Below are positions 2,956 to 60,078 of a DNA stretch of 64,000 bases, piece after piece. The notes under the pieces were generated by a model. It saw nothing but the letters and a program-made list of their open reading frames with translations, ran no database searches and had not been told where the DNA came from. Position numbers and translations under genes: made by a program. The stretch's first letter is position 1; the number at the start of each line of letters is the position of its first letter. Source of the stretch: Microbacterium esteraromaticum (GTDB lineage Bacteria > Actinomycetota > Actinomycetes > Actinomycetales > Microbacteriaceae); NCBI RefSeq assembly GCF_028747645.1, contig NZ_CP118100.1, forward strand, positions 1 to 64,000. The letters are read 5' to 3'.

Positions 2956-3006
2956 GGCCTCGAGCCCACCTAACGATCCCGCCGGGCCGATGTCGGTCAC
3001 CGAAGG

Positions 3007-3012
3007 TAGGCT
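3007..3012 (+). promoter_or_regulatory. Candidate -10 box, leaderless recF transcript
   Basis: TAGGCT ends 6 nt before the recF GTG at 3019, so transcription would begin at or next to the start codon. The same spacing recurs at many genes of this window, which supports a leaderless mRNA. Confidence 0.5.
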
Positions 3013-3018
3013 GATGCG

Positions 3019-4203
3019 GTGATTGTGGAGCACCTGAACCTGGTCGATTTCCGCAATTATGCGACCGCCGACCTCACTCTGCATCGCGGCCCGAACGTGC
3101 TCGTCGGCAGCAACGGGCAGGGCAAGACCAACCTCGCCGAAGCGATCGTCTTTCTCGCGACGCTCGGATCCCACCGGGTGTCGTCGGATGCGCCGATGGT
3201 GCGAGATGACAAGGATTTCGCCGTTGTGCGCGCCAGGTTGGCGCATGGAAAGCGCACCGTCCTTGTCGAAGTGCAGATCAATCGACAGGGATCCAACCGG
3301 GCTCGCATCAACGGCTCGCCGTCGAAGACCAATGAGCTGCCGCGCTACGCGCACGTCGTGCTGTTCGCCCCGGAAGATCTGCAGATCGTGCGCGGTGACC
3401 CGTCGTCCCGTCGACGCTTCGCCGATCAGTTGCTGATCCAGCGCACCCCGCGCATGGCCGGTGTGATCGCCGACTACGACCGGGTGCTGCGCCAGCGAAC
3501 GGCGCTGTTGAAATCCGCTCGCGCGCGCGGTGTGCGTGGCGAAGGGCTGAGCACCCTCGACGTGTGGGACGACAAACTGGTCGCGCTGGGCTCCGAGATC
3601 ATCCATGCGCGGCTGCGCCTCGCTGCAGATCTGCGCGGTCCATTGGCCGAGGCGTATGCGGCCATCGCCGGGGCCGACCACCAGCCCGAGCTCGAGTGGG
3701 CGCTGTCGGTGCGCGGCGCGGATCCGGATGCTGACGATTCCGCGGCCGATGCACCGGCATCCGATGAGGGCGACATCCCGACCATGTTCCGCGTCGCGCT
3801 GCAGCAGCGCCGCGCGAAAGAGATCGAGCGGGGTCTCACCCTCGTCGGCCCACACCGTGATGACCTGCTGCTGCGTGTACGCGATCTGCCGGTGAAGGGG
3901 TACGCCTCGCACGGCGAATCGTGGTCGGTGGCGCTCGCCCTGCGGCTCTCCTCGGCGGAACTGCTGCGTTCCGAGTCCCCGGCCGGCGATCCGGTGCTGA
4001 TCCTCGATGATGTCTTCGCCGAGCTCGATGCCGACCGCAGGCGTCGCCTGGCGACGTTGACCGCCGGGTACGAGCAGGTGATCGTCACCGCCGCGGTCGA
4101 GGCCGACATTCCCGAGATGTTGCACCGTCACGTGGTGCGGATCAGCGCCGGCACGATCACCGATGAGAGGGACACAGACGAGAGGGAGGATGCCGATGAC
4201 TGA
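3019..4203 (+). CDS. recF: DNA replication and repair protein RecF
   Basis: RecF is an SMC-like ATPase that loads RecA at gapped DNA with RecO/RecR. The 394-residue protein has Walker A GSNGQGKT at 30-37, an ABC-type signature region around SHGESWSVALALRLSSAELL, and Walker B LILDDVFAELD near 328-338. An acidic, Asp/Ala-rich insertion (about residues 235-255) lies in the arm domain. The GTG start has no leader and a -10 box six bases upstream. The last codons overlap the start of dciA (ATG inside ATGACTGA), so the two are translationally coupled. Confidence 0.96.
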   Translation: MIVEHLNLVDFRNYATADLTLHRGPNVLVGSNGQGKTNLAEAIVFLATLGSHRVSSDAPMVRDDKDFAVVRARLAHGKRTVLVEVQINRQGSNRARINGSPSKTNELPRYAHVVLFAPEDLQIVRGDPSSRRRFADQLLIQRTPRMAGVIADYDRVLRQRTALLKSARARGVRGEGLSTLDVWDDKLVALGSEIIHARLRLAADLRGPLAEAYAAIAGADHQPELEWALSVRGADPDADDSAADAPASDEGDIPTMFRVALQQRRAKEIERGLTLVGPHRDDLLLRVRDLPVKGYASHGESWSVALALRLSSAELLRSESPAGDPVLILDDVFAELDADRRRRLATLTAGYEQVIVTAAVEADIPEMLHRHVVRISAGTITDERDTDEREDADD

Positions 4204-4681
4204 TCCGCAACCCCCGGAGACGGTCGCCACCTACCTGCGCCTGCGCGGACTCAAGCCGAGTTCGACGAACTGGAAGCGCAAGAAGCGTCTCGTCGTCGAT
4301 GATGACAATGCCCCGTTCACGAAGGGGCGGGATCCGGGAACGCTCGGCGACGTTCTGGCCAAGCTCACGCGCGATTCGGGTTGGGAGAAGACGCTCGCCG
4401 CCGAGGATCTCGTACGCCAGTGGGCCGAACTGGCCGGGGCAGGCACCGCCAAGCACTCCGAACCGGTGTCGCTCGAGCGCGGCGTGCTCACGGTGAAGTG
4501 CGATTCGACGGCGTGGGCGAAGAACCTGCAGTTCATGCGCGCAGTCATCATGACCGAGATCACGAATCGGTATCCGGATGCCGGTGTGCAGAACCTGCGG
4601 TTCATCGGACCGGACGTTCCGTCGTGGAAGTGGGGACCGCGGGTGGTGCCCGGACGCGGCCCACGGGACACCTACGGGTAG
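4196..4681 (+). CDS. dciA: DUF721 family helicase-loading protein DciA
   Basis: DUF721 proteins, now called DciA, are the ancestral bacterial loaders of replicative helicase DnaB; the mycobacterial equivalent lies at the same place between recF and gyrB. The 161-residue product starts MTDPQPPETVATYLRLRG; the frame is open for 11 more codons upstream, but ATG 4196 overlaps the recF stop and fits coupling. Core features are the early Arg/Lys stretch (WKRKKR), the helix EDLVRQWAELAG and the KH-like segment SVSLERGVLTVKCDS-type strand followed by WAKNLQFMR. Assignment relies on this pattern plus synteny. Confidence 0.9.
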   Translation: MTDPQPPETVATYLRLRGLKPSSTNWKRKKRLVVDDDNAPFTKGRDPGTLGDVLAKLTRDSGWEKTLAAEDLVRQWAELAGAGTAKHSEPVSLERGVLTVKCDSTAWAKNLQFMRAVIMTEITNRYPDAGVQNLRFIGPDVPSWKWGPRVVPGRGPRDTYG

Positions 4682-4758
4682 GGCATCACGCGCGCACCCT
4701 CAAGCGCTCAGAACGCCCCACACGGCCTTAGAGCCGCATCTCGATGCTCGAAACCCGC

Positions 4759-6849
<2,091 letters not shown>

Positions 6850-6892
6850 GCGCGTCGCCTCGTACGTGAACGACCGGAACTGAAAGACACTC

Positions 6893-9430
<2,538 letters not shown>

Positions 9431-9450
9431 TCTGAAGAGAGCAACGACAC

Positions 9451-9855
9451 ATGAGCACAGTCGCGGACAAGCTGGCGAAGAAGTCCACCCGCAAGACCGC
9501 CGGCAAGCAGGTTCGCCTGCGCCTGGTCTACGTGGACTTCTGGTCTGCCGTGAAGCTGTCGTTCCTCGGGGCGGTCGCCCTGGCGATCGTGACCATGGTG
9601 TCGTTCTTCTTGATCTTCATGGTGCTGCAGGCGACGAATGTCATCGCGCAGGCGGGTGAGATCCTCACGACACTCACCGACGGCAGCGTCGACCTCGAGA
9701 GCCTGCTGGGTCTGCCGCAGGTGATGGCCTTCGGCGCGGTCGTGTCGATCCTGAACCTGATCGTGTTCACGGTGCTGGGCGCTGTCATCGCCGGTATCTA
9801 CAACCTCGCGGTCAAGGTGACCGGCGGTTTGCTCGTCGGCTTCATGTCGAACTGA
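9451..9855 (+). CDS. DUF3566 membrane protein downstream of gyrA
   Basis: A 134-residue membrane protein of the DUF3566 family, which is regularly found directly after gyrA in actinobacteria; its role is unknown. The N-terminal 25 residues are Lys/Arg-rich (cytosolic). Two strong membrane segments follow (about 33-58 and 90-120) with a loop LTTLTDGSVDLESLLGLPQ between them, and the C terminus has the family-like NLAVKVTGGLLVGF. It begins 20 bp after gyrA with AGAGAGC as a ribosome-binding site. The stop codon lies inside a terminator hairpin. Confidence 0.9.
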   Translation: MSTVADKLAKKSTRKTAGKQVRLRLVYVDFWSAVKLSFLGAVALAIVTMVSFFLIFMVLQATNVIAQAGEILTTLTDGSVDLESLLGLPQVMAFGAVVSILNLIVFTVLGAVIAGIYNLAVKVTGGLLVGFMSN

Positions 9856-9884
9856 CGCAGCGGGGTTGGACCCCGCCGCGTCAG
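9852..9884. terminator. Bidirectional hairpin terminator
   Basis: CTGACGC-A-GCGGGG at 9852-9865 pairs with CCCCGC-C-GCGTCAG at 9871-9884, a 13-bp stem with one mismatch and a 5-nt loop. It separates the gyr operon from the convergent VIT1 gene. Confidence 0.7.
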
Positions 9885-9913
9885 TAAACCCGCCGAGCCG
9901 GCGACCTCGGGGG

Positions 9914-10627
9914 TCAGACGACTCCGGTCGTACCCAGCAGGGTACCGATGACCCAGGTGACCAGCAGCGCCAATGCGCCTCCGAGCACAAGGCGCACGGT
10001 TGCTCGCACCGGTGAGGCGCCACCCACCTTCGCCGAGATCACTCCGGTGAACGCGAGGGCGAGCAACACCGCGACGAAGGTCACGGGCACGCGCAGCTCG
10101 GGCGGCGGAAGCAGGATCGCCAGCAGCGGCAGCAGCGCGCCGATGGTGAACGAGATGGCTGACGAGATCGCCGCGTGCCACGGGTTCACCAGATCATGCT
10201 GATCGATACCCAGTTCGATGTCGAGGTGCGCCGCGAGAGCATCGTGCTCGGTGAGCTCGGTGGCCACCTGACGGGCCGTGCTCTCGCTGAGACCGCGCTG
10301 GCGGTACAGCTCGGTGAGCTCATCGAGTTCCTGCTCGGGCATCGTGCGCAGCTCTTCACGCTCCTTGGCGATCAGTGCACGCTCGCTGTCGCGCTGGCTG
10401 CTGACCGACACGTACTCGCCGAGGGCCATCGAGATGGCTCCACCGACCAGGCCGGCGATACCCGCGATCAACAGCGGCGCCGAGTCCGTCGACGCGCCGG
10501 CGACACCGACCACGAGGGATGCCACCGAGACGATGCCGTCGTTCGCGCCGAGCACTCCGGCGCGCAACCAGTTCAGTTTCTGACCGAGACCTGCTCCGTG
10601 TGGCTCGGCGGGATGCGTAGCGCTCAT
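9914..10627 (-). CDS. VIT1/CCC1 family iron/manganese transporter
   Basis: VIT1/CCC1 proteins export Fe2+ or Mn2+ from the cytosol. The 237-residue product has the family opening KLNWLRAGVLGANDGIVSVASLVVGVAGA, a second helix with GLVGGAISMALGEYVSVSSQRD, a cytosolic helical metal-binding domain rich in Glu/His (about 80-150), and three more C-terminal membrane helices. The start MSATHPAEPHG at 10627 was preferred over an 11-codon longer form because a GGGGG ribosome-binding stretch directly precedes it. The gene is convergent with the gyr operon and divergent from the kinase gene at 10745. Confidence 0.9.
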   Translation of the reverse strand: MSATHPAEPHGAGLGQKLNWLRAGVLGANDGIVSVASLVVGVAGASTDSAPLLIAGIAGLVGGAISMALGEYVSVSSQRDSERALIAKEREELRTMPEQELDELTELYRQRGLSESTARQVATELTEHDALAAHLDIELGIDQHDLVNPWHAAISSAISFTIGALLPLLAILLPPPELRVPVTFVAVLLALAFTGVISAKVGGASPVRATVRLVLGGALALLVTWVIGTLLGTTGVV

Positions 10628-10731
10628 GCCCCCATGATGGCCGAGTTCGGCCCCGATCACAGCCCGAAGGGTAGGGAAAACCCGAATGGGGCTCTCGGGC
10701 TGGCCCCGTGTCGGGAAACGACGAACGACCG

Positions 10732-10737
10732 TAGCGT
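10732..10737 (+). promoter_or_regulatory. Candidate -10 box, leaderless histidine kinase
   Basis: TAGCGT ends 7 nt before the ATG at 10745, fitting a leaderless transcript for the kinase-regulator-DUF4097 operon. Confidence 0.45.
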
Positions 10738-10744
10738 TGTCGAC

Positions 10745-12070
10745 ATGACCACGAATCCGTCTCCCCCGCCGCCACCGGTGCCGCCGGTTCCCCCGGCACC
10801 CGCACCGCCCGTGGCCGATGCCCAGGCCAAGGACGGCAACACACCACCGTTGCGCATTCTGCTCACCATCCTTGAGCTGGCCGCTCTCGGTGCCATCGGC
10901 ACCGGGGTCATCAGTGTGCTGGCGGGCGCTCTCGGCCTCGGTGTCGGGCTGTTGTTCGCGTTCGGTATCGGAGCGATCGTTCTCGTGGGTGTGGTGTACG
11001 GCCTGTTCGGCGTCGCCTGGTTCGAAGTGCGTCGCGTGAGCACGCTGTACGACATCGACCTGCCTGATCTGAGATGGCGCGCCCCCAGCAAGCCCGGCTT
11101 CAGCGGCTGGCTCGGATCTCTCGCACGGCAGTCGATCAGCGGCCCGATGTGGCGCGCGGTCGCGAACTTCACACTCGCCTGCATCGCCGGCTCGCTGGTG
11201 ATCCGCCTGTTCGGGGGAATGATCTGGTCAGCGTTCTTCGCGTTGTCGCCCTTGACCGGACAGGACACCACCCCGGGGCCGTTCGGTGCCGTGATCCACT
11301 CCGCATGGGCGCCGTTCGTCGGCATCCTCGGTGTACTTGCGGCGGGCGCCGCGATCGTCGGCCTCGCGTTGCTGCATCGCGTCATCAGCCGTGCTCTGGT
11401 GGTTCCCAACCGTGAGGCCGAGCTGACCGCGCAGGTGCGCACGTCCAGCGCGCAGCGCGCGGGCGCGGTGCGCGCCGCCGAAGTGGAACGCACCCGCATC
11501 GAACGTGACCTGCATGATGGCGTCCAGCCCCGGCTCGTATCGGTGGGCATGACCCTCGGCCTGGCGCAGCAGAAGATCGACAATGATCCCGCCGCGGCCA
11601 AGGAGCTGATCGGCGAGGCACACACCTCGACGAAGGCGGCGATCACTGAACTGCGGCAGCTGGCCCGTGGCATCCACACCTCAGTGCTGGACGATCGCGG
11701 ACTCGACGCGGCGCTGTCGGCGCTGGCGGGGCGCTCACACATCCCCGTGCATCTCGACGTGCGTATCGAGCCGGGTGCGGTGGGCGGATGCCGGGACGCC
11801 GAGGCGGCCGTGTACTTCGCGATCGCCGAGTCGTTGACCAACGCCGCCAAGCATTCGCGCGCCAGCGAGTGCCGGGTCGTGGTGCGTAGTCGAGACAACG
11901 GTCTGTGGGCCCGTGTCGAGGACAACGGACTGGGTGGTGCCCAGGTGCAGCCCGGTGGTGGCCTCGACGGCATCACCAACCGGGTGCTGGCGGCCGGCGG
12001 AACGTTCCGCCTGGAGAGCCCCGCGGGCGGTCCGACGAGCTTGGAGGTGACGGTGCCATGCGCATCCTGA
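10745..12070 (+). CDS. Sensor histidine kinase (NarL/LiaS type, HisKA_3)
   Basis: Membrane sensor kinase of a two-component pair with the gene that follows. The 441-residue protein has a Pro/Ala-rich cytosolic N terminus (about 1-35), a four-helix membrane sensor region (about 38-225), the dimerisation/phosphoacceptor motif ERTRIERDLHDGVQPRLVSVG near 245-265, and a HATPase_c domain with AESLTNAAKHSRA (N box) and VEDNGLGG (G1 box). ATG at 10745 was chosen because the open frame upstream runs over the divergent VIT1 gene and a TAGCGT box lies seven bases before it. The 3' end overlaps the regulator by 13 bp. The signal sensed is unknown; a downstream envelope protein suggests envelope stress. 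Confidence 0.92.
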   Translation: MTTNPSPPPPPVPPVPPAPAPPVADAQAKDGNTPPLRILLTILELAALGAIGTGVISVLAGALGLGVGLLFAFGIGAIVLVGVVYGLFGVAWFEVRRVSTLYDIDLPDLRWRAPSKPGFSGWLGSLARQSISGPMWRAVANFTLACIAGSLVIRLFGGMIWSAFFALSPLTGQDTTPGPFGAVIHSAWAPFVGILGVLAAGAAIVGLALLHRVISRALVVPNREAELTAQVRTSSAQRAGAVRAAEVERTRIERDLHDGVQPRLVSVGMTLGLAQQKIDNDPAAAKELIGEAHTSTKAAITELRQLARGIHTSVLDDRGLDAALSALAGRSHIPVHLDVRIEPGAVGGCRDAEAAVYFAIAESLTNAAKHSRASECRVVVRSRDNGLWARVEDNGLGGAQVQPGGGLDGITNRVLAAGGTFRLESPAGGPTSLEVTVPCAS

Positions 12071-46530: not shown

Positions 46531-46546
46531 ATCGAAACGTTTCGAT
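46531..46546. promoter_or_regulatory. LacI-family operator palindrome
   Basis: ATCGAAACGTTTCGAT is a perfect 16-bp palindrome with the central CG typical of LacI/GalR-family operators. It lies between the divergent MFS and LacI genes, directly against the MFS -10 box and covering the -35 region of the regulator, so binding would repress both. Confidence 0.8.
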
Positions 46547-46565
46547 GTCGTGTGCGCAAGCGGGA

Positions 46566-46571
46566 TATCCT
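46566..46571 (+). promoter_or_regulatory. Candidate -10 box, leaderless LacI gene
   Basis: TATCCT, 6 nt before ATG 46578. Confidence 0.45.
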
Positions 46572-46577
46572 CGGAGG

Positions 46578-47651
46578 ATGAGCAGCAGCGGCCGTCGCGC
46601 GACCATCGCGGACGTGGCGCGTGAGGCCGGGGTGTCGACATCGACGGCATCCGTGGTCTTCAGCGGCAAGGTCAATGTCGCCGAGGCGACGCGCGAGCGC
46701 GTGCTCGCCGCGGCCGACGCGCTGGGCTACGCCGGCCCGGATCCGCGCGCCGCGTCGCTGCGCACGGGCCGCAGTGGCATCGTCGGTGTGCTGCTCGGCG
46801 GTGATCTGCGCCATGCCTTCCTCGACCCGGTCACGACGGTGATGATGGACGGCCTGACCGAGGCGATGGCCGCGGACAGCGTAGGTCTGCTGTTGCTGCG
46901 CGATGACCCTCGTGGTGCGGAGGCACCGCCGATCGGAGAGGCGCCGGTGGACGCGGTCGTGCTGATCGGCTGCTCGGCCCGGACGCGTTCGGCACTGGAC
47001 ACGGTGCGCCAGCGCGGTTTGCCCGCCGTGGTGATAGAAGGCGACGCCGGACCAGATGTTCCCCAGATCACCCTGAATAACCGCGAGGCTAGTGCCGAGA
47101 TCGCGCGTCATCTATTCCACTTGGGGCATAGACGGGTGGAGACCATCACGCTGCCCCTGGATGCGGCACGTTCGCGAAGCGCGCTGACGCCCGAGCGCGA
47201 GGCGGCCGCCACGGTGGACGTCACGTTGGATCGACTCGCCGGTTTCCGTGAGGTGTACCCGCAGGGCGGTGGCGTCTCGGCGGCCGGAAGCCTGGTCGAC
47301 GAGGGCAACCATGGCGCGCGGATGCTGCTCGCCGATCCGGACGGGCGGCTACGAGACGACCGGCCGACAGCGATCGTCGCACAGAGCGATCTTCTGGCCG
47401 TCGGCGCGATCCGCGCCGCCGAGGAGCTCGGTCTGCGTGTACCGGACGACCTCAGCGTCGTCGGCTTCGACGGCATCTCGGCTGACGGGCTGGGGTCGCG
47501 ACGCCTGACCACCATCACGCAGCCTGCGCTCGAGAAGGGGCGTGCGGCGGGCACCCAGATCTCGCGGATGCTGGCCGGGGAGCCGGGAGAGTCGGTGCAC
47601 TTCACGTGCGTTCTGCGCGTCGGGGGGACCTCGGCCGCCCCGCGTGCATGA
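46578..47651 (+). CDS. LacI-family transcriptional regulator
   Basis: DNA-binding regulator, 357 residues: N-terminal helix-turn-helix ATIADVAREAGVSTSTASVVFSGKVNVAEATRERVLAAADALGY and a C-terminal periplasmic-binding-type ligand domain (two lobes, LRVPDDLSVVGFDGISADGLGSRRLTTITQP near the end). An ATG 33 bp upstream lies inside the operator palindrome and is rejected. It likely binds the 46531-46546 site to regulate itself and the divergent MFS gene. The sugar effector cannot be told. Confidence 0.92.
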   Translation: MSSSGRRATIADVAREAGVSTSTASVVFSGKVNVAEATRERVLAAADALGYAGPDPRAASLRTGRSGIVGVLLGGDLRHAFLDPVTTVMMDGLTEAMAADSVGLLLLRDDPRGAEAPPIGEAPVDAVVLIGCSARTRSALDTVRQRGLPAVVIEGDAGPDVPQITLNNREASAEIARHLFHLGHRRVETITLPLDAARSRSALTPEREAAATVDVTLDRLAGFREVYPQGGGVSAAGSLVDEGNHGARMLLADPDGRLRDDRPTAIVAQSDLLAVGAIRAAEELGLRVPDDLSVVGFDGISADGLGSRRLTTITQPALEKGRAAGTQISRMLAGEPGESVHFTCVLRVGGTSAAPRA

Positions 47652-47860
47652 CGCGTCGGTGTCATGCCAGCATATTGCTAGGACGACTTACAAACCCTGC
47701 TATTCCGCAGGATTTAGAGGCTCGACAGCGGTCCACAGTTTGTGCATACTTGACGCTTGACGCGCCGCCAGCACTGTGGGGGTGCACGGTTGCGACGTGA
47801 GGTGGGGACCTCCGGGCGACTTCGTTAGGGCGACGCGTCGTGATCGCTGGGGGATCAACC

Positions 47861-48778
47861 ATGTTGCATGTTCTGTTGTCGGCTGCCGTCTTGGCAGGCG
47901 CCGCCGTGGCCGCTGGTGCGACCATGCACCGCACTGCTCGCTGGATCGACCGCGAGTTCCGCTATGGCCGAGTGCTTCGCACCGTCGTTGCGGCGATCGG
48001 CATCGCGCTCGCGACCAGCGCGATGGCCATCGTGCTCACCACCGGGCACGCGCACGATATCGCGGGCCTGTTCGCCTGCTGCGCCAGCCTGCTGCTCGTC
48101 GGTGTGCTGTTCATCGCGCCGTACCTGCGCCGAACGGTGTCGGTGACGCTGCGGCCGCGTCGCATCCTCGCGATCGGGGCGCACCCGGACGACCTGGAGC
48201 TCGCCTGCGGTGCGACCCTCGCGAAGCTCGTCGACCAGGGGCACGAGGTGCACACCGTCGTGATGAGCCACGGCGCGTCGGGCGGCGACGAGCACACGCG
48301 CGCATTGGAGGCGCGCAACGGGTCGCTGTACCTTCGAGCCACGACCGTCAATGTGCTCGACTTCGAGGACACCGCGTTGCGTGAGCACGAGCAGGGCATG
48401 ATCGCCGCGATCGAGCGTGCGATCCGCGACGTACGCCCGGATGTCGTGCTCACCCACTCGGCGCATGATCAGCACCAGGACCACCACGCCGTCCACCAGG
48501 CGACCATGCGCGCCGCGCGACAGTGCCCATCGATCCTCTGCTACGAGAGCCCGTCGGTGACCCGCTCGTTCTCGCCGGAGTTCTTCGTCGACGTCTCGAC
48601 CCACGTCGACGTCAAGGTGCGCGCCATTGAACTGCACCGCGACCAGCGGAACAAGCCATACATGACCGGCGCGCGTGCGCGCGCGACCGCCGCGTTCCGC
48701 GGGGGCCAGGCCAGGGTCGGCTTCGCCGAGGGGTTCGAGGTCGTGCGCCTCGAGGCGTCGGCGATCGGCGAATTCTGA
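47861..48778 (+). CDS. Membrane PIG-L-family N-acetylglucosamine deacetylase
   Basis: Zinc-dependent de-N-acetylase of the PIG-L/LmbE/MshB family. The 305-residue protein has three N-terminal membrane helices (about 2-21, 38-60, 64-88) and a C-terminal catalytic domain with AHPDDLE at 107-113 (zinc ligands and catalytic Asp) and HDQHQDHHAVH later. Arg-rich loops after helices 1 and 3 place the catalytic domain in the cytosol. ATG 47861 is preceded by GGGGGA. It is the first of four overlapping genes; TGATG joins it to the ATP-grasp gene. Confidence 0.88.
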   Translation: MLHVLLSAAVLAGAAVAAGATMHRTARWIDREFRYGRVLRTVVAAIGIALATSAMAIVLTTGHAHDIAGLFACCASLLLVGVLFIAPYLRRTVSVTLRPRRILAIGAHPDDLELACGATLAKLVDQGHEVHTVVMSHGASGGDEHTRALEARNGSLYLRATTVNVLDFEDTALREHEQGMIAAIERAIRDVRPDVVLTHSAHDQHQDHHAVHQATMRAARQCPSILCYESPSVTRSFSPEFFVDVSTHVDVKVRAIELHRDQRNKPYMTGARARATAAFRGGQARVGFAEGFEVVRLEASAIGEF

Positions 48779-49680
48779 TGCGCGTTCTGCTCACGGGCGT
48801 CGGAGGCCCTGCCGGGCGCTCGCTCGCCCGGCAGCTCTCAGCGCGCGGCCACTGGGTTGCCGGAACCGACCTGCGCGACACCGGTGCTGAGGTGGATGCG
48901 TTCCGTCGGGTGTGCGCCGTGTCGGACCCCGCGTACCTGCCGACCCTCCACGAACTCGTGGGGGAGTGGAGCGTGGATGCTGTCATCCCGAGCATCAGCG
49001 AGGAACTGCCCCTACTCGCCGGCCAGCACGCGCTCCTTCCGGTGCCGGTCCTGATCGGCTCGCCCGATGCCGTCGGGACGGCCGACGACAAGCTGCTCAC
49101 CGCGCAGCGATTGCAGCAAGCGGGGGTTCCCGTGCCGCGATTCGCCGGCCCCGCGGACTTCCCGTCTGCCGCGGACGCCGTGAGCGCCCTTGGGGGACCG
49201 GTGATCGTCAAGCCGCGCGTGGGGCGGGGAGGACGTGGGGTACGACTGCTCGACGTGTACGAATCCGCCGGGCCCATCGCCGAGGGCTACTGGGCCGATC
49301 TCGACGAGGGGAGCATCGTGCAGGAGTTCGCACCCGGCGCGGAGTACGCGCCGGTGCTCTTCCGCGACATCGACGGCGCGTTCCCGGTCTGCACGGTCCT
49401 GCGCAAGACGGCGTTGAAAGACGGCGCCGTCGGCAACGCGGTCTCGGTTGTGCGCGTCGAGGGCACAGAAGATGACGACGTGAGATCGGTCGCTCGCGCC
49501 GCCGCCGAAGCGCTTGATCTGCACGGTCCGATCGACATCGACGTGCGTCGCCGCGCGGACGGGATGCCGGTGGTGCTCGAGATCAACGCCCGCTTCGGAG
49601 CGAACAGCGCTCATGCCCCGGAGCTGCTCGATGCCGCGCTCGCGTCTCTGTCGGAACGTACCGCGGCCGCCCGCGTATGA
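48778..49680 (+). CDS. ATP-grasp ligase
   Basis: Predicted carboxylate-amine/thiol ligase. The 300-residue protein has a pre-ATP-grasp Rossmann-like domain (LLTGVGGPAGRSLARQL, about 1-95) and an ATP-grasp fold with GGPVIVKPRVGRGGRGVRL near 140-158 and EINARFGANSAHAPELL near 260-275 (metal ligands Glu/Asn). The layout is of the carbamoyl-phosphate-synthase-like group often found in polysaccharide loci. Because it sits between a deacetylase and a glycosyltransferase, it may attach an amino or other acid to a freed amine; this is inference. Confidence 0.85.
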   Translation: MRVLLTGVGGPAGRSLARQLSARGHWVAGTDLRDTGAEVDAFRRVCAVSDPAYLPTLHELVGEWSVDAVIPSISEELPLLAGQHALLPVPVLIGSPDAVGTADDKLLTAQRLQQAGVPVPRFAGPADFPSAADAVSALGGPVIVKPRVGRGGRGVRLLDVYESAGPIAEGYWADLDEGSIVQEFAPGAEYAPVLFRDIDGAFPVCTVLRKTALKDGAVGNAVSVVRVEGTEDDDVRSVARAAAEALDLHGPIDIDVRRRADGMPVVLEINARFGANSAHAPELLDAALASLSERTAAARV

Positions 49681-51014
49681 GTCTGATGCAGGTCGTTCAG
49701 ACCATTGCGATCCTGCTGTTCGCGGTGAGTGTGGTCAAACTCGTCTTCGTGCCGCTGGCGCTGTGGTTCGAGGCGCGTCTGCGCACGACCCCGTGGCGCC
49801 GTGCGCGCCTGAAAGCGGGGCCTGGCCCAGGAGTGCGCGGGTTCGCGGGAAGGTCCGCGCGACGGCGCAGCTCACGACACCTGCGGTACCTGGACGGCAC
49901 CACGGTGTCGGTCATCATCCCGGCGTACAACGAGGGCATCGTGCTGCGCAATTGCGTTGACTCGGTGATGCGCAGCGACTATCCGCATGTCGAGGTGATC
50001 ATCGTCAACGATGGCTCCACCGACGACACCGGCGACGTCATGGCAGACATCGTCCACCGGCATCCGAGCGTCCGCGCCATCCATCAGGCCAATGCGGGCA
50101 AGGGGGCCGCTCTCAACCGGGGGATCGCCGAGGCGAGCGGTGACGTGCTGCTGTTCGTCGACGCTGACGGCCTGTTCACGCCACGCACGATCGACTGGTT
50201 GCTGGTGGGGCTCTCATCACCGGACGTCGGCGCGGTCTGCGGCGACGATCGGCCGGCGAACCCCGACCGGCCGCTCACCCAGATGCTCTCGGTGATGAGC
50301 CACGTCGGTACCGGGCTGGTCCGCCGCGCCCTCTCGCTGCTGCACTGCCTACCGATCGTCTCGGGCAACATCGGTGCCTTCCGCGCATCGCTCGTGCGCG
50401 AGATCGGCGGTTTCCGCGAAGACACCATCGGCGAGGACCTCGAACTCACCTGGCGGGTGTACGCCGCGGGCTACCGCGTGGTCTTCCAGCCCCGCGCCAT
50501 CGTCTACGCCGAATCGCCCTCGACCATGCGCGGACTCTGGCGTCAGCGGGTGCGCTGGTCGCGCGGACTGCTGCAGACGACACGCATCCACTGGCGCCTG
50601 ATCGGCAATCCGAACCACGGGGTGTTCGGTAGCTTCCTGGCTCTGAACACCTTCGCGATGATCATCGCGCCCCCCTCACAGATGGTCGTGCTGATCGCGC
50701 TTGGCGGGGCCCTTCTACTCGAGCCACAGCCCGCCGCTCCCGAGGTGATGGCCGTGCTGTCGTGGCTAGGGGTCTTTCTCAGCCTGGCACTGGTGCTGCT
50801 CGCGATCGTGTTGAACGCGGCCTGGCGCGACCTGCGCTACCTGTGGACGCTGCCGTTCTGGCCGATCTACTCGATGGCGATGGGGCTGACCATGGTCACC
50901 GCGCTCGTGCAAGAGGTGCGCGGTGCCCCGGCCCGCTGGAACAAGCTGCAGCGCACCGGTGTGGTCACCGGCGGTGCGGTTGCGGGCATGGTCCCGGTCG
51001 GGAAAGCCGCCTGA
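49677..51014 (+). CDS. Processive family 2 glycosyltransferase (PgaC/IcaA-like)
   Basis: Membrane synthase that polymerises a beta-linked amino-sugar or similar glycan. The 445-residue protein has an N-terminal helix (about 8-32), a basic linker, a GT-A domain with VSVIIPAYNE (77-86), DxD-type VDAD (161-164), GEDLE (252-256) and QRVRW (290-294), then three C-terminal helices. The Q-x-x-R-W motif marks a processive beta-glycosyltransferase such as PgaC/IcaA, hyaluronan or cellulose synthases. It overlaps the ATP-grasp gene by 4 bp and the secreted protein gene at TGATG. Confidence 0.9.
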   Translation: MSLMQVVQTIAILLFAVSVVKLVFVPLALWFEARLRTTPWRRARLKAGPGPGVRGFAGRSARRRSSRHLRYLDGTTVSVIIPAYNEGIVLRNCVDSVMRSDYPHVEVIIVNDGSTDDTGDVMADIVHRHPSVRAIHQANAGKGAALNRGIAEASGDVLLFVDADGLFTPRTIDWLLVGLSSPDVGAVCGDDRPANPDRPLTQMLSVMSHVGTGLVRRALSLLHCLPIVSGNIGAFRASLVREIGGFREDTIGEDLELTWRVYAAGYRVVFQPRAIVYAESPSTMRGLWRQRVRWSRGLLQTTRIHWRLIGNPNHGVFGSFLALNTFAMIIAPPSQMVVLIALGGALLLEPQPAAPEVMAVLSWLGVFLSLALVLLAIVLNAAWRDLRYLWTLPFWPIYSMAMGLTMVTALVQEVRGAPARWNKLQRTGVVTGGAVAGMVPVGKAA

Positions 51015-52297
51015 TGCCAGAGGCGTCCCCGCTGCACTCCTGGCGTCGGTCTCTCCTCGGCACGCTGGCGCTCGTCGTTCTGGTGGGAGCCATCGCCGCC
51101 ACCGCCGTGCTCGCCACACGGGGTGCGCCCGCCGCGAGCCCGACGCCCGTGCCGTCGTCGCCATCGTCGGAGCCGGCACGCACCGCAGCGGCCGCGCCGA
51201 CACCGACGCCCGAGCCCATCACGACGACGTGCCCATCCGAGACGGCCCCGCCACCGGCATCCGACATTCCCGCCCACCGGGCGGTCAACTTCGGCGTCGA
51301 GGACCTCGTCGACGAACGCCCCGGCCACCTGGAGGCGCTCGCCGAGAGACTCGACCAGGTCGGCGCCAACACTGTCTCGATCTCGGTCGGGCGACTCGAC
51401 TGGATCGAGTTCCCCTGGGCCGGCAACGAACGCAACCAGTCGTCGGATGTCATCAAGACCGGTCGCGACTACGTCGGCGAAGCCGTGAACGTCTTCCGCT
51501 GCGCGCCGGACGGCACCAGCCGTACCGTCATCCTCGGCATCGACACGTTGTTCGGGCGCGACATCCAGCGCGGCACGGTACCGGCCGGGCAGACGGTGGG
51601 GGGATGGTCATCCGACCTATTCGCGAGCCTGAGCGCCTGGAAGAGCGATGAACTGAGCAGCCGCCTGATCGCGCTCGCCGAAGAGCTGGCAGTGCGCTAC
51701 CAGCCCGATGCCATCAACATCACCGAGCTCTTCTTCGACACCACCGTGTACGGGCCGGCCGATCTGGTCGACTTCCGCAGCGTCAGCGGGATGAACGACT
51801 GGCCGCGACGCGACGATGGCGGCGTCGACGCACATCACCCGGCGGTGACCGCATGGAAGACCGACGCCCTGACAGGGGTGCTCGCCCAGCTCGATCAGGT
51901 GCTCACCCCGCACGGTGTCGAACTGACCGCCGACGTGCGTGGCCCGCTCGACGTGCACACGCCCACGCGCGCCGACATCGGACAGGACTACCCCCGCATG
52001 CTCGAGCACGCCGATCGCCTGAACGTCTGGGACTTCCCCGGGGTCAACCAGTGGATCGGGGTGCTCGACGCGAATGACTACGCCTCCGTGCTGTTCGGTC
52101 CGGCTCCCGAGAGATACTCGCTCGAGATCGGGCTGTGGCTCGGCGGTGGCGCGATCTCGCCAGACGTGCTTCGCAAAGAACTGGCGGTGGCGAGCGACTT
52201 CGGCATCCGCTCCGTGTCGGTGACACCCGCTTCGTTGATGACCGATGCGCACTGGAACGTGCTGCAACAGGAATGGCGCGAGAAGGCCACCCCGTAG
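51014..52297 (+). CDS. Secreted TIM-barrel-like protein of the glycan cluster (PgaB hydrolase-like)
   Basis: The 427-residue protein has an N-terminal membrane anchor/signal (about 13-35), a Ser/Pro/Thr/Ala-rich spacer (about 36-80) and a large extracytoplasmic domain. The pattern HRAVNFGVEDLVDE...LAERLDQVGANTVSISVG, AINITELFFDT, and VTAWKTDALTGVLAQLDQVLTPHGVELTADVRG suggests a TIM-barrel glycosidase related to the hydrolase half of PgaB, which trims PNAG; I cannot assign catalytic residues. It is the last of the four coupled genes. Alternative: a glycan-binding or unrelated barrel protein. Confidence 0.65.
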   Translation: MPEASPLHSWRRSLLGTLALVVLVGAIAATAVLATRGAPAASPTPVPSSPSSEPARTAAAAPTPTPEPITTTCPSETAPPPASDIPAHRAVNFGVEDLVDERPGHLEALAERLDQVGANTVSISVGRLDWIEFPWAGNERNQSSDVIKTGRDYVGEAVNVFRCAPDGTSRTVILGIDTLFGRDIQRGTVPAGQTVGGWSSDLFASLSAWKSDELSSRLIALAEELAVRYQPDAINITELFFDTTVYGPADLVDFRSVSGMNDWPRRDDGGVDAHHPAVTAWKTDALTGVLAQLDQVLTPHGVELTADVRGPLDVHTPTRADIGQDYPRMLEHADRLNVWDFPGVNQWIGVLDANDYASVLFGPAPERYSLEIGLWLGGGAISPDVLRKELAVASDFGIRSVSVTPASLMTDAHWNVLQQEWREKATP

Positions 52298-52356: not shown

Positions 52357-55329
52357 ATGCTGTTGCTCCTTGCCGTGTTCCTCGCGGGAGCTCTGCTGCT
52401 CCCGTTCCTGGTGCGCTGGCTGGGAGCGCAGGCGTTCGTGCTCGGGGCCCTGGTGCCCGGCGCCGCCTTCGTGCATGCGCTCACGCAGACACCCGCCGTG
52501 CTGTCGTCCGAAACGGTGCCCTTCGAGTCGTACAGCTGGATCCCGCAGCTCGGGCTGAACCTCTCGATGCGGATGGACGTGCTCGGGTGGGTGATGACGC
52601 TCATCGTCACCGGTGTCGGCGCGCTCGTGCTGCTCTACTGCCGGTGGTACTTCCATGATGACGCCGCCGACGTCGGGCAGTTCGCCGGCGTGCTCCTCGG
52701 ATTCGCCGGAGCGATGTACGGACTGGTGCTCACCGATGACCTGATCGTCATGGTCATGTTCTGGGAGCTCACCAGCATCCTCTCGTATCTGCTCATCGGC
52801 CACTACCGGCGGCGCGCTTCGAGCCGGCGTGCTGCGCTGCAGGCACTGCTGGTGACCACTCTCGGCGGACTCGTGCTGTTCGTCGGTGCGATCCTCCTGG
52901 TCGTCGACACCGGTACCTCCAGCATTCGCGAGCTGATCGAGATCGCGCCCACCGGACCCCTCATCGACGCCGCCGTGGTGATGCTGCTGATCGGTGCGGT
53001 GAGCAAGTCCGCCCTCTTCCCGTTCCACTTCTGGTTGCCCGGTGCGATGGCCGCGCCGACCCCGGTCAGCGCATATCTGCATGCCGCCGCGATGGTGAAG
53101 GCCGGTATCTACCTCATCGCACGGTTCGCGCCCGTCTTCGCCCTCGCCGACCCCTGGCGACCGATCGTCATCGGCCTGGGCGTGTTCACCATGCTGCTCG
53201 GCGGTATCCAGGCGCTGCGCGAGACCGACCTCAAGCGCATCCTCGCGTTCGGCACCGTCAGTCAGCTGGGCTTCCTGTCGGTCGTGATCGGCTACGGCAC
53301 GCCGGCCGCCGCGCTGGCGGGCCTGGCCCTGGTGCTCGGACACGCCCTGTTCAAGTCAGCACTGTTCCTCATCGTCGGCATCATCGACCGGCAGCTCTCT
53401 ACACGCGACATCGACGAGCTGTCGGGCGTGGGTCGGCAAGCCCCGGTACTGGCGACAGCGGCATTCATCTCGGCCGCATCCATGATGGGCCTCGCCCCCA
53501 CGCTCGGCTTCGTCGCGAAGGAATCCGCGCTCACCGCACTGCTGGAAGACGCCGAGCACGGCTCGATCTGGGGGTGGGTCGCGCTCATCGGTGTCGTCAT
53601 CGGATCCATGCTGACCGCCGCATACAGTGCGCGATTCCTCTGGGGTGCATTCTGGCGCAAGAAGGACGCCACGGGCGCTTATATGCCTGACACGGAATGG
53701 CCAGATCCGCCGGTGGGCTTCCTGTCTGCCCCGATCATCCTGGCCGGCGTCACGGTCGCGGCAGGACTGGGCGCACCGACGGTCGACACCGCCCTGCAGG
53801 GGTACGCCATCACGGCGCTGCCTGCGGGTTCGGCGGCCTCGCCCGAACCCGGTCACCTGGCGCTCTGGCACGGGCTCGAACCGGCGCTCTTCCTGTCGCT
53901 CGGAGCGATCGCTGCCGGCATCGGACTGTTCATCCTCAGCATCCGATCCGGTTGGGACCGGCGGCGCAAGCTGCTTCGGTTCACGGCGGCCGACGCGTAC
54001 TACGCGGTCATGCGCGGCATCGACCGCGTCTCGGTCTTCACGACCGGACTCACTCAGCGCGGCTCGCTGCCTCTCTACGTCGGCACCATCTTCATCGTGC
54101 TGCTCGCCGCCGAGGCGACCGCACTCGTGGCCGCCGCCCCCGAACGGCTCGAACTGTCGGCGTGGCACACGCCGGCGCAGATCGTCGTCGCCCCCGTCAT
54201 GGCGATCGCCGGCGTGATCGCAGTGCGAGCGCGCAAGCGCTACACGGGCGTCGTGCTGGTCTCGGTCACCGGACTCGGCATGGTGGTGCTGTTCGCGACC
54301 AGCGGTGCGCCCGACCTCGCACTCACGCAGATCCTCGTCGAGACGGTGACGATGGTCACCTTCGCGCTGGTGCTGCGGCGGCTGCCAGCACGGATGGGAG
54401 AGCACAACGCCTCGGTGGGCAGGCTACCCAGAGCGGTGCTGGCCATCGGCGTCGGTGTCACGATGGCGTTCGTCGCGATCGTCGCGACCCAGGCACGCAT
54501 CTTCGAGCCGATCTCGACCGATTTCAGCGACCTCGCGTACAACCTCGGGCACGGCAAGAACGTCGTCAACGTCGCACTGGTCGACCTGCGCGGGTGGGAC
54601 ACCATGGGTGAGCTCAGCGTACTCGTGCTGGCGGCCACCGGAGTGGCATCCCTCGTCTTCGTCTCGCATCGCGCCGACCTGCTCTCGGCCACACGCGACC
54701 TCCCGGCGACCGGCCGCCGTCGCCGGGAACGACGCCCCCTGGTCGAGACCGATCAGGGACTGCGGTTCCAGACCTCCGAGAACCAGGGTGCGCCGCGCGC
54801 CTGGCTGGTCAGCGGGCAGCAGATCAAAGCCGAAGACCGTTCGATCCTGCTCGAAGTGATCGTGCGGGTGCTGTTCCACACCATCATCGTGGTGTCGATC
54901 TACCTGCTGTTCGCCGGGCACAACCTGCCGGGCGGCGGCTTCGCCGGTGGCCTCGTGGCCGGCATGGCCATGGTGATGCGCTACATCGCCGGAGGGCGCT
55001 GGGAACTCGGCGCAGCCGCGCCGACCGACGCCGGGCGCCTGCTCGGAGCCGGCCTCGCCCTCGCCGTCGGCGCAGCCCTGATGCCACTCTTCTTCGGCAT
55101 GGCACCCCTGCAGAGCGCGGTGTGGGAATGGGAGGTTCCCGTTCTCGGTCATCTCGAGCTCGTGTCGTCGACGATCTTCGACATCGGCGTCTACCTGGTC
55201 GTGATCGGCCTGGTGCTCGACGTGCTACGCAGCCTCGGTGCCGAGGTCGACCGGCAGACCGCCCAGCTGCGGCATCCCGAGCGCGAGTTCACGGCGGCAC
55301 CACCGCGCACCGGGGGGAGAAGCAGCTGA
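52357..55329 (+). CDS. mrpA: Na+/H+ antiporter subunit MrpA fused with MrpB
   Basis: Largest subunit of the Mrp-type multisubunit cation/proton antiporter, homologous to complex I NuoL. The 990-residue protein has about 20 helices; the NuoL-like part includes MFWELTSILSYLLIGHYRRR, SKSALFPFHFWLPGAMAAPTPVSAYLHAAAMVKAG and LFKSALFLIVGI. After residue about 820 it has a MnhB-like part (GHNLPGGGFAGGLVAG, FDIGVYLVVIGLVLDVL), so MrpB is fused at the C terminus and no separate mrpB exists. It starts the operon mrpA(B)CDEFG. Confidence 0.96.
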   Translation: MLLLLAVFLAGALLLPFLVRWLGAQAFVLGALVPGAAFVHALTQTPAVLSSETVPFESYSWIPQLGLNLSMRMDVLGWVMTLIVTGVGALVLLYCRWYFHDDAADVGQFAGVLLGFAGAMYGLVLTDDLIVMVMFWELTSILSYLLIGHYRRRASSRRAALQALLVTTLGGLVLFVGAILLVVDTGTSSIRELIEIAPTGPLIDAAVVMLLIGAVSKSALFPFHFWLPGAMAAPTPVSAYLHAAAMVKAGIYLIARFAPVFALADPWRPIVIGLGVFTMLLGGIQALRETDLKRILAFGTVSQLGFLSVVIGYGTPAAALAGLALVLGHALFKSALFLIVGIIDRQLSTRDIDELSGVGRQAPVLATAAFISAASMMGLAPTLGFVAKESALTALLEDAEHGSIWGWVALIGVVIGSMLTAAYSARFLWGAFWRKKDATGAYMPDTEWPDPPVGFLSAPIILAGVTVAAGLGAPTVDTALQGYAITALPAGSAASPEPGHLALWHGLEPALFLSLGAIAAGIGLFILSIRSGWDRRRKLLRFTAADAYYAVMRGIDRVSVFTTGLTQRGSLPLYVGTIFIVLLAAEATALVAAAPERLELSAWHTPAQIVVAPVMAIAGVIAVRARKRYTGVVLVSVTGLGMVVLFATSGAPDLALTQILVETVTMVTFALVLRRLPARMGEHNASVGRLPRAVLAIGVGVTMAFVAIVATQARIFEPISTDFSDLAYNLGHGKNVVNVALVDLRGWDTMGELSVLVLAATGVASLVFVSHRADLLSATRDLPATGRRRRERRPLVETDQGLRFQTSENQGAPRAWLVSGQQIKAEDRSILLEVIVRVLFHTIIVVSIYLLFAGHNLPGGGFAGGLVAGMAMVMRYIAGGRWELGAAAPTDAGRLLGAGLALAVGAALMPLFFGMAPLQSAVWEWEVPVLGHLELVSSTIFDIGVYLVVIGLVLDVLRSLGAEVDRQTAQLRHPEREFTAAPPRTGGRSS

Positions 55330-58762: not shown

Positions 58763-58838
58763 CAACTCCGGAAGAACCTGCGGCAACCCGCCCGTTTTCG
58801 TCATTTGACGTCTACTCGCAGGTGTTTCTCCGGAGTTG
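58763..58838. repeat. Inverted repeat pair inside the IS left end
   Basis: CAACTCCGGAAGAACCTGCG (58763-58782) and CGCAGGTGTTTCTCCGGAGTTG (58817-58838) are near-perfect inverted copies, each like the terminal repeat. The 76-bp unit could be a remnant of another IS end or a regulatory hairpin in the transposase leader. Confidence 0.65.
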
Positions 58839-58899
58839 TGTGCACTTCACTCGTGGCGGATTCATATGGTCGATGCATCGGTTGATGTGGAGGTCGTTG

Positions 58900-60078
58900 A
58901 TGACGTATTCGGTTGCGGTCAGGGATGCGGCGCTGTTGGCGGTGTGTCAGGGGCTCTCTTTCGGGCGCGCTGCGCAGGTCGTTGGCGTGTCAGACAAGAC
59001 GATCGGGATGTGGTGGCGGGACAGTGTCGGTATGCCAGTGTTTCGTCGCCAGAAGCCTGTTTCCGACCCTCTACGCCCGGACTCGGTGCCAGGTCGGGGG
59101 TTGACGTTGGAGGAGCGAATCGAGATCCAGTCCGGCGTGCGAGCGGGCCTGTCTCAGCGCGAGATCGGTTGGCGGATTGGCCGGGATCAGTCGGTGATCT
59201 CTCGTGAACTCGCTCGGCACCGGGGTGTGGATGGTCAGTATTGCGCGGCGGTCGCGGAGCTGTCCGCGCAGCGTGGCCGGCGACGGCCGAAGGAGTTCAA
59301 ACTCAACACGAACCCATCCCTCGCCGCGCAGATCACCGACTGGATGGACGATGGGTGGAGTCCGAAGCTGATCGCGACGGTCCTCGAAATCGACCATCCG
59401 GACGACAAGACTTGGCGGGTGAGCCACGAGACGATCTATCAGGCCCTGTATGTCCAAGGGCGCGGCCAGTTACGCCAGGATCTGGCCCGTCAGCTGTCCA
59501 CCGGGCGCACGGCCCGCAAGTCCCGGGAAGGGGCGAGCAGGCGTTCACCGAGCCCGTTCAAAGACGCGTTGAAGATCAGCCAACGCCCTGCTGAGGTCGA
59601 GGACCGTGCGGTCCCTGGGCATTGGGAGGGGGACCTGATCCTCGGCGCAGGGAACCGGTCAGCGATCGGGACACTGGTGGAGCGGACCACCCGGTTCACG
59701 ATCCTGCTGCACCTGCCCAACTGCCACACGGCAACCGAAGTCGCCGGGGCGATGATCCGCGAGATGAGCAAGCTCCCCGACCACCTGCGCCGATCGATCA
59801 CCTGGGACCGAGGAACCGAACTGGCTGACTACGTCGACATTCAACTCGATCTGCAAGCCCCCGTCTACTTCTGCGACCCACACTCACCCTGGCAGCGCGG
59901 CACGAACGAGAACACCAACCGGCTCCTGCGGCACTGGTTCGCCAAGGGCAGCGACCTATCCGCCTGGACCGCCGAGGACCTGCGCCACGTCGCCGACAAA
60001 CTCAACGCCAGACCCCGCCCCACCCTTGAGCTGAGAACACCCGCCCAAGCGTTCAACGAGTTCCTCCTAACCGCATGA
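58900..60078 (+). CDS. IS30-family transposase
   Basis: The 392-residue protein has N-terminal helix-turn-helix modules (LSFGRAAQVVGVSDKTIGMWW; GLSQREIGWRIGRDQSVISREL) and a DDE catalytic domain: PGHWEGDLILGAG (first Asp), TWDRGTELADY (second Asp) and PHSPWQRGTNENTNRLLRHWFAKG (Glu). ATG 58900 has GGAGG six bases upstream; two longer starts (58873, 58822) exist. The frame is intact, so the element may be active. Confidence 0.93.
   Translation: MTYSVAVRDAALLAVCQGLSFGRAAQVVGVSDKTIGMWWRDSVGMPVFRRQKPVSDPLRPDSVPGRGLTLEERIEIQSGVRAGLSQREIGWRIGRDQSVISRELARHRGVDGQYCAAVAELSAQRGRRRPKEFKLNTNPSLAAQITDWMDDGWSPKLIATVLEIDHPDDKTWRVSHETIYQALYVQGRGQLRQDLARQLSTGRTARKSREGASRRSPSPFKDALKISQRPAEVEDRAVPGHWEGDLILGAGNRSAIGTLVERTTRFTILLHLPNCHTATEVAGAMIREMSKLPDHLRRSITWDRGTELADYVDIQLDLQAPVYFCDPHSPWQRGTNENTNRLLRHWFAKGSDLSAWTAEDLRHVADKLNARPRPTLELRTPAQAFNEFLLTA

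Follow-up and report, generated by a model that had tools for sequence, protein, structure and literature searches.

The window analysed here, the first 64,000 nucleotides of the forward strand of contig NZ_CP118100.1 of Microbacterium esteraromaticum (assembly GCF_028747645.1, a genome of one contig with 3,197,365 bases), contains four tightly packed open reading frames (ORFs), which encode in order a membrane PIG-L deacetylase, an ATP-grasp ligase, a PgaC-like family 2 glycosyltransferase (GT2) synthase and a secreted protein, hereafter G4. With a probability that we put at roughly 0.45, they form a self-contained, horizontally acquired surface amino-glycan cassette with N-acyl exchange in the cytosol before polymerisation. 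The four genes are:

47861-48778, + strand: membrane-anchored PIG-L deacetylase, 305 residues (PF02585, 97.7 bits)
48778-49680, + strand: ATP-grasp ligase of the 'carbamoyl phosphate synthase-like' type, 300 residues (PF02655, 54.6 bits)
49677-51014, + strand: PgaC-like processive-type GT2 membrane synthase, 445 residues (nearest NCBIfam model PgaC_IcaA)
51014-52297, + strand: G4, secreted or membrane-tethered, possibly a glycosidase-like barrel, 427 residues (N-terminal helix; family not assigned)

The initial annotation had described four same-strand genes joined by TGATG/ATGA overlaps, which is confirmed by the ORF coordinates and by the junctions read from the sequence (TGATG at 48776-48780, ATGA at 49677-49680 and TGATG at 51012-51016; overlaps of 1 or 4 bases). 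PIG-L has an alternative upstream start, a GTG at 47840. The family motifs that had been seen in the first three genes are borne out by Pfam scores above the cut-offs, and no Pfam family scores above its cut-off in the fourth. Residue invariance was assessed in alignments of 20 PIG-L, 17 ATP-grasp and 19 GT2 sequences from close and distant relatives, omitting matches below 60 bits (the ATP-grasp proteins of loci L052 and L054 and the GT2 of L048). Membrane helices and their sidedness were predicted from simple hydropathy and flanking charges rather than by a trained predictor.

The first protein belongs to the PIG-L family (cut-off 28.2 bits), and D110, D111, E113, H199, D203, H205, D207 and H208 are invariant in 20/20 sequences, with H108 retained in 19/20; the HPDD motif together with the later His and Asp residues forms the PIG-L metal site. 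Helices are predicted at residues 4-22, 41-59 and about 67-85, and together with the positive-inside rule they place the catalytic domain, by prediction, in the cytosol, as had been proposed. The protein scores 31.2 bits against the NCBIfam model of the mycothiol enzyme MshB (cut-off 224.35), 34.6 bits against that of Mca (cut-off 277.15) and 86.4 bits against BshB1 (cut-off 182.5). A role in mycothiol synthesis is not favoured by scores so far below the MshB and Mca cut-offs, and since this PIG-L is the sole family match in the source genome at E up to 0.001, with no separate MshB or Mca seen in that scan, the scores are not proof. The role of PIG-L is likely dedicated to the cassette. PIG-L and amide-forming enzymes do occur together in small-molecule pathways such as that of mycothiol, and the patchy distribution of the cassette and the missing second PIG-L would also suit a small amino-sugar metabolite, mycothiol-like or secreted, instead of an envelope component; the PgaC-type membrane synthase and the distance from the MshB cut-off make such a product very improbable.

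The second protein is an ATP-grasp enzyme (cut-off 23.2 bits for ATP-grasp_3, PF02655) with no predicted membrane helix, and it is 98% identical to a protein labelled Microbacterium esteraromaticum. Its score of 106.1 bits against the PRK12767-type NCBIfam model is below the cut-off of 218, and it belongs to the broad carbamoyl-phosphate-synthase-like ligases, a family without a fixed substrate. K145, E189, E268, N270 and R272 are invariant in 17/17 sequences and K105 is found in 16/17; such Lys and Glu/Asn residues bind ATP and metal in ATP-grasp enzymes.

The third protein contains a Glyco_tranf_2_3 domain (122.2 bits, cut-off 27), and its nearest NCBIfam model is PgaC_IcaA (TIGR03937), with 197.7 bits (197 in the genome scan) and a cut-off of 422.3 that it does not reach, followed by EpsD (100.2 bits), NodC (83.8) and HpnI (39.5). 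It is the best match to the PgaC/IcaA model in the genome and shares 33% identity with E. coli PgaC over 227 aligned positions. The residues D112, D162, D164, E253, D254, Q290, R291, R293 and W294 are invariant in 19/19 sequences and make up the D, DxD, ED and QxxRW motifs of processive GT2 enzymes; helices are predicted at the N-terminus (one) and towards the C-terminus (at least two). Both the nearest model and the motifs agree with the proposal that this is a processive GT2 of the beta-glycan type.

The main rival to a polymer is a glycolipid pathway, in which GT2 would add one or a few N-acetylglucosamine (GlcNAc) units to a membrane lipid, PIG-L would deacetylate them and the ATP-grasp enzyme would add an amino acid, so that the product would be a cationic or aminoacylated glycolipid. 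The PIG-L of the cassette is predicted to be membrane-tethered, as eukaryotic PIG-L is too, and in the HpnI/HpnK precedent a PgaC-related GT2 is involved; however, the score with PgaC/IcaA is far higher than that with HpnI, none of the four genes encodes a flippase, and secretion of the fourth protein would suit a polymer better. Operons of a glycosyltransferase and a deacetylase that make glucosaminyl lipids are known, such as gpgSDF of Pseudomonas aeruginosa, yet in the retrieved portions of that paper GpgS is GT4-type and GpgD is a COG3233 deacetylase, families other than those of the cassette (PMC12713373). Taken together, a glycolipid product is rather unlikely.

In the route that we infer for a surface amino-glycan, from substrate and step order to the added group and the length of the polymer, PIG-L would remove the N-acetyl group, on the cytosolic side, from a sugar of the UDP-GlcNAc type or from a membrane-linked precursor derived from such a sugar. 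The ATP-grasp enzyme would then spend ATP to put a new acyl group on the freed amine, most likely an amino acid or a small acid; the PgaC-like GT2 would polymerise the modified amino sugar and extrude it via its own membrane channel; and outside the cell the polymer might be trimmed or bound by the secreted G4. In the synthesis of mycothiol and bacillithiol, an amide is formed on the amine after a PIG-L step, and it is this pairing, together with the precedent of an ATP-grasp amidoligase in Campylobacter, that points to N-acyl exchange in the cytosol. If the route operates, the amines of the exported polymer would bear amino acids or other acyl groups, and the cassette would offer a route to side-group-bearing amino glycans from a common sugar, with a bearing on biofilm and cell-surface chemistry. 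It is compact in the source genome, and its three-gene core is small enough for transfer to a laboratory host.

The cassette is real, conserved in other genera and more than a chance arrangement. The initial annotation had made its proposal depend on the genes being kept together in related genomes, and Arthrobacter, Paenarthrobacter and other Micrococcales show the four-gene order again, with identities of 33-61%; M. esteraromaticum strain GN8-5 has the same four genes with the same neighbours. When the species genome collection was scanned with the G4 alignment, 6 loci were found, and the order PIG-L, ATP-grasp, GT2 and G4 is intact in L017, L018, L019 and L021, the contig of L021 beginning within PIG-L. 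L022 of Arthrobacter sp. MYb214 has a G4 piece alone at 9962-10243, perhaps a remnant, with no partner genes. A PIG-L search of 149 genomes of the order matched 17 genomes at E up to 1e-20, own included, and the regions of all 17 matches listed for the 16 other genomes were compared. Five of them (L041-L045) contain a close form of the PIG-L, ATP-grasp and GT2 trio at 42-60% identity, and six (L049, L051, L052, L053, L055 and L057) a distant form at 28-41%; L048 and L054 have a partial set, and L046, L047, L050 and L056 are without the set, although L046 and L050 match GT2 weakly. A rough control came from 29 stretches of 4.5-6 kb around mrpA in relatives, in which no match to PIG-L, ATP-grasp or GT2 exceeded 60 bits. 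The trio is thus the conserved core. G4 was matched in L044 and L045 and not in the other three close trios, and because three of the five close trios found via PIG-L are without a G4 match, G4 is probably an accessory.

The arrangement of the ATP-grasp gene bears on whether this enzyme acts on the glycan at all. In a plain glucosamine polymer, PIG-L would supply or trim units inside the cell for GT2 to polymerise, and the ATP-grasp enzyme would make a separate precursor or amidate, for example, a uronic acid. Partial de-N-acetylation is usual in polymers of the poly-N-acetylglucosamine (PNAG) type, no CE4 gene is among the four, and L020 (Arthrobacter horti) has at 2710-11140 two tandem sets of PIG-L, GT2 and G4 with a single close ATP-grasp gene. 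An ORF of L020 at 1654-2628, before the ATP-grasp gene, shows a 30% ATP-grasp match and no Pfam match at E up to 0.001. Against a plain polymer, the ORF coordinates of the window, L017, L019, L021 and L042 show the ATP-grasp gene abutting or overlapping the genes on either side, and the distant form retains it as well (weakly in L052, 49.7 bits), which leaves this alternative unlikely. A route through N-acyl exchange is supported by a trio that keeps its order across several genera and recurs in a divergent second form, as well as by catalytic residues that across both forms are invariant or missing in one sequence.

This second form, the distant trio, has a PHP-like gene between the ATP-grasp and GT2 genes (PHP by Pfam in L055 and L049). 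In L048, L049, L051, L053 and L057 PIG-L is fused, within one ORF, to a response-regulator receiver domain identified by Pfam, which was not seen on the PIG-L of L052 and L055; of the five loci with the fusion, L049, L051, L053 and L057 also have the ATP-grasp, PHP-like and GT2 genes. L048, L049 and L051 have a PAS histidine kinase (Pfam) near PIG-L and L057 has a similar protein, and none was seen in L052, L053 and L055; three of the six distant trios combine the receiver-PIG-L fusion with a nearby histidine kinase. With the ATP-grasp protein of L053 as the query, two of 149 genomes of the phylum matched at E up to 1e-30. In L096 a PIG-L match of 29% lies about 3 kb from the ATP-grasp gene, in L097 a GT2 match of 30% adjoins it, and the full set was seen in neither. 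The wider claim, that PIG-L, ATP-grasp and GT2 define a class of actinobacterial N-acyl-exchanging surface-glycan machines in whose second branch PIG-L is a response-regulator output, is somewhat doubtful; if true, a sensor kinase would directly switch deacetylation.

G4 had been taken for a PgaB-like barrel, and this assignment is not supported: hhalign gave a probability of 0.5% against E. coli PgaB (limited in sensitivity by the single-sequence template), and the 25 G4 members, which are G4 itself and the 24 homologues found, together match 14 Pfam families at E up to 1, the PgaB hydrolase family (GH153, GHL13) not being one of them. One of its matches, a protein labelled Microbacterium esteraromaticum, is 87% identical. 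G4 has one predicted N-terminal helix (residues 14-32), a Pro/Ser/Thr-rich linker and a conserved domain at about 87-427. For GHL10 (PF02638), 6/25 members have a match at an E-value of 1 or less, the best being 0.00047, the G4 of the window not among them, and when 20 of the 25 members were rescanned, the four matches with bits displayed scored 11.7-15.1 under a cut-off of 27.9; DUF4015 matches are also weak and below the cut-off. Relationship to GHL10 or to the E. coli glycosidase DigH (hhalign probability 3.6%) is not decided by such weak matches, and G4 may be a glycosidase-like barrel. Between two strains of one species, the window and L017, the G4 DNA is 91.1% identical, its differing codons being 47 nonsynonymous and 45 synonymous, and the PIG-L, ATP-grasp and GT2 DNA is about 98% identical, with nonsynonymous to synonymous ratios of 3:12, 4:11 and 4:22. 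The excess in G4 lies largely in the N-terminus and linker, and the contrast is marginal for the barrel part alone (p = 0.05).

The close form is patchy. A full G4 was found in none of 77 relatives, which gave seven weak matches within residues 2-127, mostly leader and linker, and G4 occurs in 3/148 genomes of the order, own included. At E up to 1e-25 the close ATP-grasp form is confined to the own genome among 296 of the phylum, by which a phylum-wide spread of the close form is rejected. Named matches of the protein searches, with names as in the sources, include Arthrobacter, Paenarthrobacter, Pseudarthrobacter, Glutamicibacter and Arachnia, and further Intrasporangium, Ruania, Occultella, Leucobacter and Corynebacterium. 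Linkage was counted in the best 120 of 798 ATP-grasp matches and the best 120 of 1582 GT2 matches, equating contigs of equal size. Among the matches listed, at least 24 contigs are common to both, and at least 6 and at least 5 of the 25 G4 contigs are also found with ATP-grasp and GT2, respectively; these shared contigs are consistent with linkage of the genes. The pairwise identities of the four proteins also correlate (Pearson 0.82-0.93, Spearman 0.49-0.72; 10 loci, 7 for G4), species relatedness being uncorrected.

The surroundings of the cassette suggest how it arrived. The flanking genes lie outside it, and the leader lies between the first of them and PIG-L:

46545-47651, + strand: LacI-type regulator (named by eye), left flank; a homologue lies before mrpA in relatives
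47652-47860, + strand: cassette leader between the LacI stop and PIG-L, with one promoter-like site at 47722-47750
52357-55329, + strand: mrpA-type antiporter subunit (named by eye), right flank; present across the genus

The mrpA gene was present in 39/39 genomes of the genus searched, own included, and 29 non-own mrpA loci from the 38 other genomes were compared for an empty site. In 11 of the 29 the LacI-type homologue ends 39-116 bp before mrpA, and in the other 18 it was not seen there; other neighbours of the window stand beside mrpA instead, the MFS-like one in L083 and that at 44543-45238 in L078 and L085. By eye, L060 and L061 share with the window a similar leader of about 40 bp before mrpA. 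LacI and mrpA of the window are separated by 4.7 kb that holds the four genes, and an insertion here would be simpler than repeated loss in the relatives, an argument made without a tree. The cassette was thus probably acquired horizontally, a direction of transfer that we infer. Foreign base composition is rejected, as its GC content (0.689 vs 0.676) is ordinary, and so the donor would probably be another high-GC actinobacterium. No terminal repeats framing the cassette, only short imperfect matches, were found among 20 of 30 direct families and 25 of 29 inverted pairs. A transposase-like ORF (HTH_38 plus integrase core) is located at 58822-60078, 6.5 kb downstream of the cassette.

Elsewhere the site and the regulatory setting differ. 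The cassette is just upstream of a phosphoenolpyruvate (PEP) carboxylase gene in L018 (by Pfam) and in L019, L020, L021 and L098 (by eye), so that the site of these five loci differs from that of the window. L098 (NZ_AP024649.1, 810505-827704) is in a 1.0 Mb record labelled a plasmid, and its surroundings, including the ppc-like gene, resemble by eye the Arthrobacter chromosome locus L018; because the record is possibly a mislabelled chromosomal piece, it was not counted as evidence of mobility, and a plasmid-borne cassette is rejected on this chromosome-like neighbourhood. A sigma-70-type factor precedes the cassette in L018, L019, L020, L041, L042 and L098, and an anti-sigma-type zinc finger in that protein is above the cut-off in L019, L020, L041 and L042, just under it in L018 and not listed for L098. 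The cassette of the window has no preceding sigma-70-type factor and has its own promoter-like site, the single sigma-70-like match in the leader compared with a mean of 0.2 in shuffled sequences.

Several points weigh against a polymer made by N-acyl exchange. A polymer is not proven, because GT2 scores below the PgaC/IcaA cut-off, and a PgaD/IcaD-like partner is not among the four genes. The nearest models of the ATP-grasp enzyme, whose substrate is presumed, include amino-acid, peptide and carboxylate ligases, and the fold of G4 is putative. PIG-L, as the only one found in the genome, may have a second housekeeping role, and the identity correlation, uncorrected for kinship, may carry species relatedness.

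The initial annotation, which is partly supported overall, knew of no described pathway with this gene set, and none was found in the open-access full-text literature, judged from titles, the openings of abstracts and retrieved passages among the matches listed, with subscription papers and supplements outside the scope. Within it no description of the receiver-PIG-L fusion was found either: no paper contained all the terms sought, and the ten listed of 1,261 papers with two of the three were without PIG-L. The retrieved main text of a survey of synthase-dependent exopolysaccharide operons leaves ATP-grasp, PIG-L and LmbE unmentioned (PMC7112194), and the four-gene set is not described in the retrieved portions of PMC2824669, PMC5933820 and PMC4431377.

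Known systems resemble the cassette in parts. In mycothiol (MshB-MshC) and bacillithiol (BshB-BshC) synthesis, as in the proposed route, a PIG-L enzyme de-N-acetylates a glucosaminide before an amide is formed on the amine, whereas the cassette has an ATP-grasp enzyme in place of MshC or BshC and, in addition, a membrane GT2 synthase. The DigH-type GHL10 glycosidases are approached by some G4 relatives in one part of the GHL10 model, weakly and at scores below its cut-off. In Campylobacter jejuni, the Cj1438 system likewise has a GT2 and an ATP-grasp amide ligase that cooperate on a surface glycan, the capsule; its TupA-like ATP-grasp domain is, however, fused to the GT2 and acts on the C6 carboxylate of glucuronic acid, and no PIG-L is named in the retrieved portions of the paper on Cj1438C (PMC11800379). 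The paper on gpgSDF also discusses HexSDF, and in both a glycosyltransferase step is followed by deacetylation of a GlcNAc lipid, with GpgS and GpgD both predicted, and only predicted, to be cytoplasmic (PMC12713373); these systems differ in enzyme families and in having a predicted flippase, and the retrieved portions mention no ATP-grasp. The PNAG systems pgaABCD and icaADBC and the matAB system of Streptomyces share the PgaC-like GT2 core and the expectation of an amino-sugar polymer with de-N-acetylation, whereas the four genes of the cassette lack a CE4 deacetylase, PgaD/IcaD and a detectable PgaB hydrolase and include PIG-L and ATP-grasp; the retrieved text on Streptomyces MatB describes a fusion of the GT2 with a CE4 deacetylase that is extracellular (PMC5972031). 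The cassette reads as a variant of the synthase-type amino-glycan systems in which a pair of enzymes of presumed chemistry would do the editing internally. The PNAG-type systems met in the literature are edited outside the cytosol, and the cassette would edit the amino group before polymerisation.

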